A stretch of 64,000 nt of DNA from NCBI GenBank assembly GCA_945898215.1, contig CAMDHY010000002.1:1-64000 (forward strand), read 5' to 3'. The notes below the pieces were generated by a model. That model worked only from the letters and a program-made list of their open reading frames with translations. It did not search any database and was not told where the DNA came from. Positions within the stretch are counted from its first letter, which is position 1, and each line of letters begins with the position of its first letter. Source of the DNA: Pseudoxanthobacter soli DSM 19599 (GTDB lineage: Bacteria; Pseudomonadota; Alphaproteobacteria; Rhizobiales; Segnochrobactraceae). Positions 13,971-19,147 of the stretch are shown one piece after another. A program made the translations under genes and the position numbers.

Positions 13971-14387
13971 ATGCGCCACGCCAACAGCGGCCGCAAGCTC
14001 GGACGTGACTCGGCCCACCGGAAGGCGATGTTCGCCAACCTCGCCTCGTCTCTGATCGAGCACGAGCAGATCGTCACGACGCTGCCGAAGGCAAAGGACC
14101 TTCGTCCGATCGTCGAGAAGCTGATCACGCTCGGCAAGCGCGGCGACCTGCACGCGCGCCGGCAGGCGATCTCGCAGATGCGCAACGAGGAGGCGGTTCG
14201 CAAGCTCTTCGCCACCATCGGCCCGCGCTACAAGTCGCGCAACGGCGGCTACACCCGCGTGCTGAAGGCAGGCTTCCGCTACGGCGACGGCGCGGCGGTG
14301 GCGGTGATCGAGCTCGTCGATCGCGACGTCTCCGCCAAGGGCGCGGCCGACAAGGCCCGCACCGAGGCCGAGGCCGAAGCGGCCTGA
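13971..14387 (+). CDS. rplQ: 50S ribosomal protein L17
   Basis: L17 lies near the tunnel exit. [20 protein letters not shown] opens the protein and the 138-residue length fits the alphaproteobacterial form, which has an Ala/Glu-rich tail. AAGGAGAGG precedes the ATG. It is the last gene of the alpha cluster and is followed by a hairpin terminator at 14448-14480. Confidence 0.97.
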
Positions 14388-14447
14388 TATCCGCCTTGTG
14401 GCGCCGCCTCCGGCGCCGGCGGGCCTGATGCCACGTTTGGCGTTGCG

Positions 14448-14480
14448 ACGGGTGGCCGAGAGGCCGCCCGTTTCCTTTTC
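14448..14480 (+). terminator. Rho-independent terminator after rplQ
   Basis: A ten-base-pair stem (14448-14457 with 14462-14471, one G-U pair) closed by a GAGA loop is followed by a pyrimidine run, ttccttttc. It lies 60 bases after the rplQ stop and would end the ribosomal protein and rpoA transcript. Confidence 0.75.
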
Positions 14481-14531
14481 TGCCGACGTGTGCAATTCTT
14501 CGCGCGCGCCATCGCGGCACAGGAGCGGGGA

Positions 14532-15665
14532 ATGAGGGACCGGACGGCGGGGGTTTTCGTGCGATTGCGGTCGGTCGCGGCCGTCGTGGCGGTCACTGTG
14601 CTCGCCGCGGCCGCCGCGGTCCGGCCGGGTGCGGCCGAGCCCCATGACGTGCCGCTCTACCACTTCAAGGCCGAGAGCTATCGGGGCTTCCTGATCTACG
14701 CCTCGGTCGGCGGCGGCCCGCTCGTCCCCTTCCTCTTCGACACCGGCTCGCCGGCGATGTTCTCGACCTATGGCGGCTGGTGGCCCGGCTACAGCACGCT
14801 CATCGACGAGCGCGGCGAGGACACGATCGAGTTCGCCTCCGGGACCGTCTATCACTACGACCCGGTGACGACGCCCGTCAGCGTCGGCACCCGCGGCGGC
14901 CGCGTCGTCGCCACCGCCGCCGCCGCCTCGATCGGTCGCATCACCAACATCGACGGCCAGTCGCCACGCCGGTCTTTTCGTGTCTGGGCGAAGAACGTCG
15001 CGGCCGGGCAGCCGGCTCTGTCGGTGGACGGCACCTACGGGAACTTCGGCGCCGCCCTGCATGGCGACGCGAGTTTCGGCACGGTGATGACGCAGTTCCC
15101 CCTGAAGAAGGGGTTGAAGCGCGGTTTCGTCGTCCAGTCGGGCGGGCGCGACGCCAAGGTAGGACGGCTCACCATCGGCCTCACCGAGGAGATGATCGCG
15201 AGTTTCCGGTTGCGTCTGCCGATGGCGCCGACGGGTGAGCGTCTCCCCGGCATCGGCACGGCCGACGGGCCGCCGGGCTACCTCAAGGCTCAGGTCGCCA
15301 ACACGGTGGTTCGGCTCGCGCGCGGCGGCAGGCACTGGAGCGGCGTCATCCCAACAGTCTTCGACACCGGCGGCGGCGACGGCACCTGGGCCTACGGCTC
15401 GAGCGTGCCGCGCGACACCTTCGTCAAGGCCGACAGCAACGAGGCGCGCACCGGCACGGCCTTCGACCTCCGCTACGCCGGCACGTCGATCCTCTCCTAT
15501 CGTAGCGGCAACACGCCGGCGCGCGACATCCTCGGCTTCATCCCCGCGAGCGCCGACGACCTGCGCATCAACCCCGGCATCCTGATGTTCTACACCTACG
15601 ACGTGATGTTCGACCTCGACGACGGTTTCATCGGGCTGCGGCCGGCGGCGAAGCTCGGCCGGTGA
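14532..15665 (+). CDS. Secreted protein resembling a bilobal pepsin-type aspartic protease
   Basis: The 377-residue product has an N-terminal signal peptide (about residues 8-36, ending near AAEPHD) and so is probably periplasmic or secreted. Two aspartic-protease-like motifs are visible: FLFDTGSP with DTG at 70-72, and TVFDTGGG with DTG at 278-280. After the first lobe comes a segment ending GRLTIGLT. Near the end, ILGFIPAS and then YDVMFDLDDGFIGLRP resemble the C-terminal ILG and FD-x-IGLAP strands of pepsins. Two DTG sites in one chain indicate the A1 layout rather than a retropepsin half. The second motif lacks the Thr/Ser that normally follows DTG. The start was chosen for its AGGAG site; a GTG at 14490 is possible. 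The assignment is inferred from motifs only. Confidence 0.65.
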   Translation: MRDRTAGVFVRLRSVAAVVAVTVLAAAAAVRPGAAEPHDVPLYHFKAESYRGFLIYASVGGGPLVPFLFDTGSPAMFSTYGGWWPGYSTLIDERGEDTIEFASGTVYHYDPVTTPVSVGTRGGRVVATAAAASIGRITNIDGQSPRRSFRVWAKNVAAGQPALSVDGTYGNFGAALHGDASFGTVMTQFPLKKGLKRGFVVQSGGRDAKVGRLTIGLTEEMIASFRLRLPMAPTGERLPGIGTADGPPGYLKAQVANTVVRLARGGRHWSGVIPTVFDTGGGDGTWAYGSSVPRDTFVKADSNEARTGTAFDLRYAGTSILSYRSGNTPARDILGFIPASADDLRINPGILMFYTYDVMFDLDDGFIGLRPAAKLGR

Positions 15666-15678
15666 CGGCGCGGCGGTC

Positions 15679-16419
15679 TCACGGGTCGAAGCGGAACATC
15701 CGGTAGAGGTCGGTCGGGGCGGCGTAGATTTCGCAGGTGTGCGAGAAGCCGGCCTCGCGGCCGAGGCGCATCCATCCCTCCGCCGTCTCCGGCAGGTCGC
15801 AGGCATGCACGTGGGCGTCGATCGCCCGCCACTGCTCCTCGCTGAGGATGGCGCGCCAGAGCGGCCGGTTCGTCGCGTCGAAGCGGGCAAGATAGGCGGT
15901 CCGGTCCTCGCCCGCCCGCATCGTCGGCTCGTAGACGAGGAAGACCCCGTCCGGGGCGATCGCCCGGCGGATCGCCGTCATCAGCGCCCGCTTGCCGTCC
16001 GTATCGAGGTGGTGGAGCGACAGGCCGAACCAGAAGGCGTCGGCGTGGGTGTCGCGCGCCGTCACCGCCTCGACGAAGTCGGCGTGGTCGAGGACGACCT
16101 CGAACGGTGCCCCCTCGAGGGTGCGGCTGGCGAGCTCGAGGGCAGGCATCGACAGGTCGACGCCGTGATAGTGGGCGACCCGGGTCCCCTCGAGGGCGCC
16201 GCGGACGACGAAGGCGTCGCCGCAGGCGAGGTCGACGAGGCTGAAGGGCCGGTCGAAGGCGGTGGCGAGGGCATCGTGCAGGTGGTCCGCCACCGCCCGG
16301 TGGAAGAGCGCATCGTTCTCGACGAGCGTCCGGTAGAGGGCCCAGTCCTTCTGGAACTGCTCGAGGGCGGGCGCGTCGACGACCTCCCCCTTCGGATGGT
16401 GGTGCAGGATGTTGACCAA
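15679..16419 (-). CDS. Class I SAM-dependent methyltransferase
   Basis: A 246-residue predicted cytoplasmic methyltransferase of unknown substrate. SLVDLACGDAFVV is the glycine-containing SAM-binding motif I, HYHGVDLSMPALELA the acidic strand 2, and FWFGLSLHHLDTDGKRALM the post-II/motif III region. I start it at a TTG at 16419 because GAGG lies six bases upstream and the gene then begins 20 bases after the TRAP binding protein stop. The frame is open further upstream but would overlap that gene. The two are probably cotranscribed. Confidence 0.75.
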   Translation of the reverse strand: MVNILHHHPKGEVVDAPALEQFQKDWALYRTLVENDALFHRAVADHLHDALATAFDRPFSLVDLACGDAFVVRGALEGTRVAHYHGVDLSMPALELASRTLEGAPFEVVLDHADFVEAVTARDTHADAFWFGLSLHHLDTDGKRALMTAIRRAIAPDGVFLVYEPTMRAGEDRTAYLARFDATNRPLWRAILSEEQWRAIDAHVHACDLPETAEGWMRLGREAGFSHTCEIYAAPTDLYRMFRFDP

Positions 16420-16439
16420 GGCTCGCCTCGTCGGGGTCG

Positions 16440-17528
<1,089 letters not shown>

Positions 17529-17668
17529 CCCGTCGTCCTCCCCCGAAGACCGTGCCGGCCCTGCCTTGCCCGCTGGCGGCCGAGCGACGATTTATCCGCC
17601 CGTGTTCCTTGCAGGCGCCACGAACGCCTAGCATGGAACGCCGGGCGACGCAGTCGGGACGGAACAGG

Positions 17669-19147
17669 ATGAGCTTTGCGGCGATGACGGGACGGGAGCG
17701 GCGGCAGGCGGGCGGCGTGGCGTCACCGCCGGGGGCCGCCGCGCAGCCCACGCTCGCGGCCGTGCTGGGCGCGCTGCTCGTCATCGTGCCGGCCACTGCC
17801 GGCGCGGACACGGTCCGCCGCGTGCCGGCCGAGCAGGCCGAGATCACGCTGTCCTTCGCCCCTGTGGTGCGCCGCGTCGTGCCCGCCGTCGTCAACGTCT
17901 ATGCCTCGCGCGTCGTCGCGACGCGGTCGCTGTCACCGTTCTTCGAGGACCCCTTCTTCCGCCGCTTCTTCGGCGACGGCGGCGGGGAAGGCCCGCGCCA
18001 GCGCCTGCAGTCGTCCCTCGGCTCGGGCGTCATCGTCGAGGGCGGCCTCGTCGTCACCAACCACCACGTCATCGAGAATGCCGATGAGGTCCGCGTCGCC
18101 CTTACCGACCGGCGCGAGTTCGACGCCGACGTGGTGCTGAAGGACGAGGGCTCGGACCTCGCGGTGCTGAAGATCCGCGGCGCACCCGAGGACCTGCCGA
18201 CCGTCCCCTTCGGCGAATCCGACGCGCTGGAGGTCGGCGACATTGTGCTCGCCGTTGGCAATCCGTTCGGCGTCGGCCAGACGGTCACCCAGGGCATCGT
18301 CTCGGCGGTCGCCCGCACCCAGGTCGGCATCACCGACTACCAGTTCTTCATCCAGACCGACGCCGCCATCAATCCCGGCAATTCCGGCGGTGCCCTCGTC
18401 GACATGGCGGGCCGCCTCGTCGGCATCAACACGGCGATCTTCTCGCGCGATGGCGGCTCAAACGGCATCGGCTTCGCGGTGCCCTCCAACATGGTGCGCC
18501 TCGTCGTCGACGCCGCGCGCACCGGCTCGGTCGTCCGGCGGCCCTGGTTTGGCGCGACGCTGCAGGCTGTCTCCGCCGAGATCGCCGAGGGCCTCGGGCT
18601 CGACCGGCCGCGCGGCGCCATCGTCACGACCGTCCATCCGGACGGGCCGGCGGCGGAGGCCGGGCTGCGCGCCGGCGACGTCGTGGTCGCCGTCGACGGT
18701 GTCGCGGTCGACGACCCGGACGCCTTCGGCTACCGCTTCACCACACGCGGCACGGATGGCGCGACGCCGCTCACCATCGTGCGCGACGGGCGCGAGCGCA
18801 CGGTCACCGTCCGCCTCGGCCCGCCGCCCGAGACCGTGCCGCGCGACGAGCGGACGATCGGCGGCTACGCGCCGCTGTCGGGGGCGACGGTGATGAACCT
18901 CTCGCCGGCGGTCGGCGAGGAGCTGAAGCTGCCGTCCGGCAAGACCGGCGTCGTCGTCGCCGCGGTGACGCCCGGCTCGCCCGCCGCCTCGATCGGCTTC
19001 GCGCCGGGCGACGTCGTCGTCGAGGTGAACGGCGAGCGGGTCGACACGACGCGCACGCTGGAGCAGATGATGCGGGAGCGCCCGGGCACCTGGCGCTTGG
19101 TCGTCGATCGCGGCGGCGAACTGCTGCGGCTGGCGCTGCGGGGCTGA
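17669..19147 (+). CDS. HtrA/DegP-type periplasmic serine protease (Do family)
   Basis: A periplasmic quality-control protease of about 492 residues. A hydrophobic segment at about 28-45 is a signal peptide or anchor. The catalytic triad is visible: His133 in TNHHVIENA, Asp163 in GSDLAVLKI and Ser239 in GNSGGA. Two PDZ domains follow, with GAIVTTVHPDGPAAEAGLRAGD and TGVVVAAVTPGSPAASIGF. The loop FFEDPFFRRFFG before the protease core is typical of DegQ/DegP-like proteins. The start is uncertain: ATGs at 17633, 17669 and 17684 are all in frame. rarA follows after 27 bases, a pairing known in Rhizobiales. Confidence 0.9.
   Translation: MSFAAMTGRERRQAGGVASPPGAAAQPTLAAVLGALLVIVPATAGADTVRRVPAEQAEITLSFAPVVRRVVPAVVNVYASRVVATRSLSPFFEDPFFRRFFGDGGGEGPRQRLQSSLGSGVIVEGGLVVTNHHVIENADEVRVALTDRREFDADVVLKDEGSDLAVLKIRGAPEDLPTVPFGESDALEVGDIVLAVGNPFGVGQTVTQGIVSAVARTQVGITDYQFFIQTDAAINPGNSGGALVDMAGRLVGINTAIFSRDGGSNGIGFAVPSNMVRLVVDAARTGSVVRRPWFGATLQAVSAEIAEGLGLDRPRGAIVTTVHPDGPAAEAGLRAGDVVVAVDGVAVDDPDAFGYRFTTRGTDGATPLTIVRDGRERTVTVRLGPPPETVPRDERTIGGYAPLSGATVMNLSPAVGEELKLPSGKTGVVVAAVTPGSPAASIGFAPGDVVVEVNGERVDTTRTLEQMMRERPGTWRLVVDRGGELLRLALRG

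Follow-up and report, generated by a model that had tools for sequence, protein, structure and literature searches.

Does an alphaproteobacterium encode an exported, two-lobed aspartic protease of the pepsin type? The question is raised by one gene in the window analyzed here, a stretch of 64,000 nucleotides from Pseudoxanthobacter soli DSM 19599. A sequence-only reading had proposed such an enzyme on the basis of two FDTG motifs and late segments resembling strands of peptidase family A1. Following up this proposal, we find that the description that fits the protein best is that of a divergent and unannotated offshoot of the two-lobed aspartic proteases that bacteria export; its nearest described relatives are the aspartic protease domains of mycobacterial PE_PGRS16 and PecA.

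Gene structure and N-terminus

The following features define the gene and its immediate upstream region.

14447..14472, forward strand: terminator-like hairpin between rplQ and the protease gene (one match against a shuffle mean of 0.9; weak alone)
14532..15665, forward strand: gene for a predicted exported two-lobed pepsin-fold aspartic protease of 377 amino acids (open frame, AlphaFold2 model, fold searches, homologs)
14532..14639, forward strand: signal-peptide-like N-terminus, residues 1-36 (charged n-region, hydrophobic core and small residues; hydropathy)

The reading frame runs uninterrupted from ATG at 14532 to TGA at 15665. It has the appearance of a real gene because it carries its own Shine-Dalgarno-like site (AGGAG, ~6 nt upstream of the ATG), lies downstream of the terminator-like hairpin, and has a third-position GC content of 92%. 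The predicted product contains no cysteines and has a predicted pI of 9.2. A search of the window's own genome with the profile of alignment A1 (described below) recovered a single copy.

The N-terminus consists of MRDRTAGVFVRLR, a hydrophobic core at residues 14-30, and GAA-EP; both sequence and hydropathy are signal-peptide-like, in agreement with the earlier description of the product as exported. We propose cleavage after ...PGAA or one residue later, and infer that the protein is exported beyond the cytoplasm. The hydrophobic segment could, instead of a signal peptide, constitute a membrane anchor.

Putative catalytic motifs and active-site residues

The motifs expected of a pepsin-type active site, together with their conservation among 55 aligned relatives, are as follows.

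14736..14747, forward strand: first active-site motif FDTG (Asp70); Asp kept in 55/55 relatives
14832..14843, forward strand: flap motif F101-A-S-G; Phe replaces pepsin Tyr75 (family column Tyr in 52/55, Phe in 2/55)
15360..15371, forward strand: second active-site motif FDTG (Asp278), followed by Gly281; Asp kept in 54/55 relatives
15570..15578, forward strand: N347-P348-G349, proposed counterpart of the pepsin C-lobe hydrophobic-hydrophobic-Gly motif (ILG), from the family N-T-G column and the spacing to the final FD strand
15609..15644, forward strand: C-terminal strand pair FDLDDGFIGLRP; FD...G..P conserved across the family

The FDTG motifs occupy residues 69-72 and 277-280, placing Asp70 and Asp278 exactly 208 residues apart, as originally reported, so that each lobe contributes one of the D[TS]G motifs characteristic of family A1. 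At least two FDTG motifs arose in 18 of 200,000 residue shuffles of the mature protein, and at least two DTG motifs in 2.4% of such shuffles; the FDTG pair is well above chance, while the DTG pair on its own is weak evidence. The two-motif observation is settled not by these shuffle statistics but by the retention of both aspartates in 54 of the 55 divergent relatives. The lone exception to the second Asp, L018 (G002:C3:459431-460333), belongs to a genome from the window's own family; its first DTG is intact, its second reads GTG, and its sequence suggests that it is likely a dead protease.

The flap tyrosine of family A1 (Tyr75) is replaced by Phe101. A Mycobacterium relative in alignment A9 also carries Phe at this position, and flap Phe has been listed for A1 homologs of Marinomonas and Sinorhizobium medicae (Rawlings and Bateman, PMC2761423). 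The proposed psi-loop counterparts read NFG (171-173) and NPG (347-349), as compared with a family consensus of NTG and the hydrophobic-hydrophobic-Gly rule of family A1. The earlier reading had identified a late ILG with the corresponding pepsin strand; however, DILG at residues 332-335 is probably not the psi-loop motif. N347-P348-G349, within "INPGILMFYTYDVMFD", fits instead, both in the family alignments and by its spacing of 12 residues from Gly to the Asp of the C-terminal FD, the distance that we count in pepsin. If NPG is the ILG counterpart, the equivalent of pepsin Asp303 would be Ile350. The resemblance drawn to the FD-IGLRP strand was correct, with a match of FD..DGFIGLRP.

At the equivalent of pepsin position 218, the protein has Gly281, and relatives have Ala, Val, Ile, or Thr. 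Small residues at this position are also known in renin and the shewasins. Replacement of Thr218 by Ala has been linked to neutral activity, and Ala218 occurs in most predicted bacterial A1 enzymes (Rawlings and Bateman, PMC2761423). The initial concern that a second site reading DTGGG might alter activity is weakened by the second motif of PE_PGRS16, which reads FDSGG with Gly at the same position (profile match to 4EHC), and by close relatives with DTGA. Because PE_PGRS16 has Gly and the relatives vary at position 218, DTGGG is unusual yet gives no sign of inactivation.

Predicted structure

The AlphaFold2 model, built from alignment A9 (12 rows at 20-27% identity; shallow), has a bilobed pepsin fold with a pTM of 0.76 and a mean pLDDT of 68.4, with weak loops. 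The top solved structure in Foldseek was 4EHC, the C-terminal domain of Mycobacterium tuberculosis PE_PGRS16 (E 1.1e-12, TM 0.61/0.73), followed by plasmepsins, cathepsin D, and fungal pepsins; in all, 539 solved chains were matched at E <= 0.001. A second aligner gave Z 23.4 and an rmsd of 3.3 over ~280 residues against plasmepsins and pepsins, spanning residues 1-341 of 342. The proposed two-lobed pepsin-type fold is thereby borne out by a whole-length match to hundreds of solved pepsin-like enzymes, and the outcome named in advance as refuting it, a model without two lobes, did not occur. We regard the pepsin fold as very likely. The superposition and the conserved motifs would place Asp70 and Asp278 facing each other.

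An autotransporter passenger domain from Fulvimonas, modeled likewise (pTM 0.77), gave listed matches that were all pepsin-type, with poorer superpositions (TM ~0.5). A fold search against viral models had a single hit within E <= 0.001, to a Pandoravirus protein (TM 0.47).

Family membership and taxonomic distribution

Membership in family A1, for which a profile search had been proposed as a check, was not supported: PF00026 gave no match to the 377-residue protein even at E 10. The sole Pfam hint was to PE-PGRS_C (PF20729; E 2e-6, 27.8 bits against a cut-off of 33, residues 50-128), and the NCBIfam PecA model NF038019 reached 19.6 bits against a cut-off of 150. Elsewhere in the wider family, members do pass the PF20729 cut-off, and one distant relative reaches PF00026 at 9.5e-5. 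Pfam searches of the protein gave no match to the PE domain associated with type VII secretion, a signal-peptide-like start being present instead, and none to the retropepsin models (A2, RVP, Asp_protease_2). Four members of the wider family (alignment A1) are matched by DUF3443 (PF11925; best E 9e-8), suggesting from sequence that DUF3443 may be related to pepsin-fold proteases.

Searches with the single protein found no relative in 60 related genomes and nothing close among genome contigs, plasmids, or PDB sequences; a direct search of 385 class genomes recovered two loci, both in one genome (a Reyranella MAG, L075). Reaching the family therefore required a PF20729 search and an alignment profile. 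The former, run on 101 related genomes, identified about a dozen proteins, each carrying two DTG motifs behind a signal-peptide-like start. Two loci (L014, L015) were left out of the family as likely chance PF20729 matches to an unrelated enzyme without DTG, as were two others (L013, L016) that appear one-lobed and retropepsin-like. Alignment A1, comprising the window protein and the proteins found with PF20729, has as common elements D34, G36, S37, a G-L-T element, the second DTG, an invariant Asn, and the final FD...G strand (numbering starts at residue 37).

The alignment A1 profile identified family members in 10 of 385 class genomes and 23 of 397 order genomes. Against the PDB, it matched 4EHC (E 2e-11) and, weakly, BACE1 and rhizopuspepsin (both near 0.01). 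When the profile was limited to the window subfamily (A9), no PDB sequence was matched, and the link to 4EHC therefore rests on the wider profile and on structure. The assertion that pepsin-like enzymes are rare in bacteria stands in part: PF00026 matched none of 289 genomes of the class, though this absence is not proven because control genomes likewise gave no match, whereas the exported two-DTG family, present in those 23 order genomes, does not fit the claim.

The nearest relatives, at ~22-30% identity, are found in Aestuariivirga, Methylococcus, a Mycobacterium MAG, Spartobacteria, and Nitrospirillum; a scan of named genomes had added all of these except the first, along with Dyella, Fulvimonas, and Rhodanobacter. 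None of eleven window-subfamily relatives searched against Pfam matches a peptidase family, and such enzymes consequently go unannotated. A maximum-likelihood tree of 46 domains groups the window protein with an Aestuariivirga litoralis protein (98/82), and then with Reyranella autotransporter proteases; its placement is tentative because its branch is long (2.08). Profile-profile comparison with the other large branch of the family aligns both DTG motifs and the C-terminal strand (P 95.8%). Viral scans with five alignments found no relative.

Domain architectures vary across the family. Autotransporter barrels (PF03797) are confirmed behind a two-DTG N-terminal passenger domain in Dyella, Fulvimonas, and Reyranella. 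Two-DTG passenger domains were observed at L071, L073, L074, and L075, and also at L006, L010, L017, L020, L032, L036, and L037; autotransporter-type members without a confirmed barrel have passenger-type repeats after the protease domain. A search of the open-access literature for pepsin domains carried by autotransporters turned up nothing beyond the retropepsin-type RC1339/APRc. In the Mycobacterium MAG (L069:4209-7811), a related protease domain precedes PGRS-like glycine-rich repeats, reversing the usual PE-PGRS-protease order, and the protein has no PE domain match. The Spartobacteria relative (L070:4821-6215) ends in a PEP-CTERM anchor. One same-family genome, G001, contains five family members, three of which (L005, L020, L059) are clustered at G001:C1:1331870-1337394, one soluble and two long and passenger-type. 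In Methylococcus (L067:1544-6251, L068:6296-7852), ~500-residue proteins without a Pfam match follow the related gene: one MAG has three of them side by side, and M. capsulatus has one, which precedes a gamma-glutamyltranspeptidase gene.

Genomic context

Two conserved genes border the region in which the protease gene lies.

13971..14387, forward strand: rplQ (ribosomal protein L17), end of the ribosomal operon and left border of a variable slot (gene order in relatives)
17552..19147, forward strand: Deg/HtrA-type serine protease with PDZ domains, right border of the slot (rplQ-deg order kept in relatives)

Relatives keep the rplQ-deg order, as well as deg-mgsA where covered. The rplQ-deg gap of the same-family genome G002 is ~450-500 bases, too small for the protease gene, and the gaps in G001 and G480 are longer and filled by other sequence; positions 14388-17551 thus represent a variable slot. 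The slot also holds a methyltransferase gene and a gene for a DctP-type binding protein on the other strand. The neighbors of the protease gene suggest no functional partner, consistent with the sequence-only reading, and Pfam scans of genes flanking the homologs returned unrelated or uncharacterized functions and no partner.

Proposed function and alternative explanations

An exported, single-chain, two-lobed pepsin-fold aspartic protease resembling PecA is the best explanation and, in our judgment, a likely one; that the protein is catalytic is likewise quite probable. The signal peptide would send the chain across the inner membrane, where the protease would be monomeric, without a zymogen stage, and active once folded. 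The catalytic Asp of pepsin is residue 32 of the mature enzyme, and Asp70 falls 33 residues past the proposed cleavage site; this leaves no room for a pepsin-type propeptide, and the enzyme would need only to fold to be active. Asp70 and Asp278, one per lobe, would activate water to cleave peptides, with the substrate held in the cleft beneath the flap bearing Phe101. Gly281 and Ile350, at the positions of pepsin Thr218 and Asp303, may confer less acidic activity suited to the periplasm. Such residue changes are tied to less acidic activity in renin and bacterial pepsins. The enzyme may act on envelope or surface proteins near neutral pH, and its action would be one of limited cleavage, as with mycobacterial PecA. 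Surface-protein processing is a role that we assign tentatively, because it is proven for PecA and because relatives are fused to autotransporter barrels, PGRS repeats, or PEP-CTERM anchors; the putative substrate class is accordingly drawn from the domain fusions of relatives and not from the gene's own neighborhood.

A soluble, anchor-free protein with a basic predicted pI of 9.2 and no linked partner gene might instead be a secreted digestive protease, degrading external protein for nutrition. We consider this unlikely: the distribution is patchy, relatives are tethered at the cell surface, and release from a Gram-negative cell needs a second step, for which secretion genes are not adjacent. 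The protein could also retain the pepsin fold and both aspartates in a binding or structural capacity, as PE_PGRS16 may, that domain having the fold and DTG/DSG motifs yet no observed proteolytic activity (PMC6819658). The GTG of L018, the flap Phe, and the Gly after the second DTG are compatible with such a loss of function. However, retention of both aspartates in 54 of 55 very divergent sequences would be unexpected had catalysis generally been lost, flap Phe occurs in other predicted bacterial pepsin homologs, and PecA is active; a nonproteolytic role therefore seems rather unlikely. More improbable is a diverged true A1 enzyme, either a shewasin-like bacterial pepsin or one acquired from a eukaryote. 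The whole-length structural match to pepsins, the single wider-family member reaching PF00026, and the weak profile matches to BACE1 and rhizopuspepsin would fit such an origin, but the window protein itself does not match PF00026, every relative recovered is bacterial, a PE_PGRS domain gives the best profile match, and signal peptides are absent from shewasin-type homologs (PMC2761423, PMC4814920). A retropepsin-type protein of one lobe, in which the second DTG arose by chance, is ruled out, even though some relatives match retropepsin-type Pfam models, by the two-lobed model that aligns with pepsins over its full length and by conservation of the second motif.

Returning to the PecA-like protease, we give nearly even odds to a broader reading, in which exported proteases with the two-lobed pepsin fold make up a large bacterial lineage apart from eukaryotic A1, with the window protein as one of its branches. 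Members of this lineage would serve in soluble form in the periplasm, as passengers of autotransporters, or mounted on PGRS repeats or PEP-CTERM anchors. In published surveys, the pepsin homologs of bacteria are few and located inside the cell (PMC2761423, PMC4814920); the known exception at the surface is mycobacterial PecA (PMC6819658). A diverse exported family in Alphaproteobacteria, Gammaproteobacteria, and Verrucomicrobia would broaden this picture. If the lineage is real, bacteria would long have used pepsin-type catalysis to process their surface proteins, in contrast to a view of it as invented by eukaryotes and found in bacteria only as a few cytoplasmic strays, and the family's sequences would help in asking whether the two-lobed fold predates eukaryotes.

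Comparison with known aspartic proteases

RloA, secreted by Pseudomonas aeruginosa, is likewise an exported bacterial aspartic protease; however, it is a retropepsin-like RimB homolog with one DTG lobe and bears no full-length resemblance to the two-lobed window protein. Pepsin, cathepsin D, plasmepsins, and BACE1 share with the window protein the fold (Z ~23), two DTG motifs, export, and a single chain. Unlike these enzymes, the window protein has no propeptide and no cysteines, carries a flap Phe, and reads NPG rather than ILG in the second psi-loop, with ~15% identity and no PF00026 match. Shewasins A and D and other bacterial A1 homologs are similarly bacterial, two-lobed, and propeptide-free, with an altered residue at pepsin position 218, but they match family A1, have no signal peptides and, in the case of shewasin D, reside mainly in the cytoplasm, whereas the window protein has a signal-peptide-like start and falls outside PF00026.

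The C-terminal domain of PE_PGRS16 (Rv0977; 4EHC, PF20729) is alike in its two-lobed fold, extracytoplasmic location, similar size, and second motif (FDSGG, as compared with FDTGG here). It differs in that the window protein has neither a PE nor a PGRS domain, relies on Gram-negative signal-peptide-type export, shares 18% identity in structural alignment, and scores under the PF20729 cut-off. PecA (PE_PGRS35; NF038019) differs in its PE domain and secretion route, and its model's cut-off is unreached by the window protein; the two are alike in fold class, two-motif active site, and extracytoplasmic location. PecA is proven to act as an aspartic protease at the surface, where it trims other proteins as well as its own chain, and its DTG Asp is required for activity (PMC6819658).
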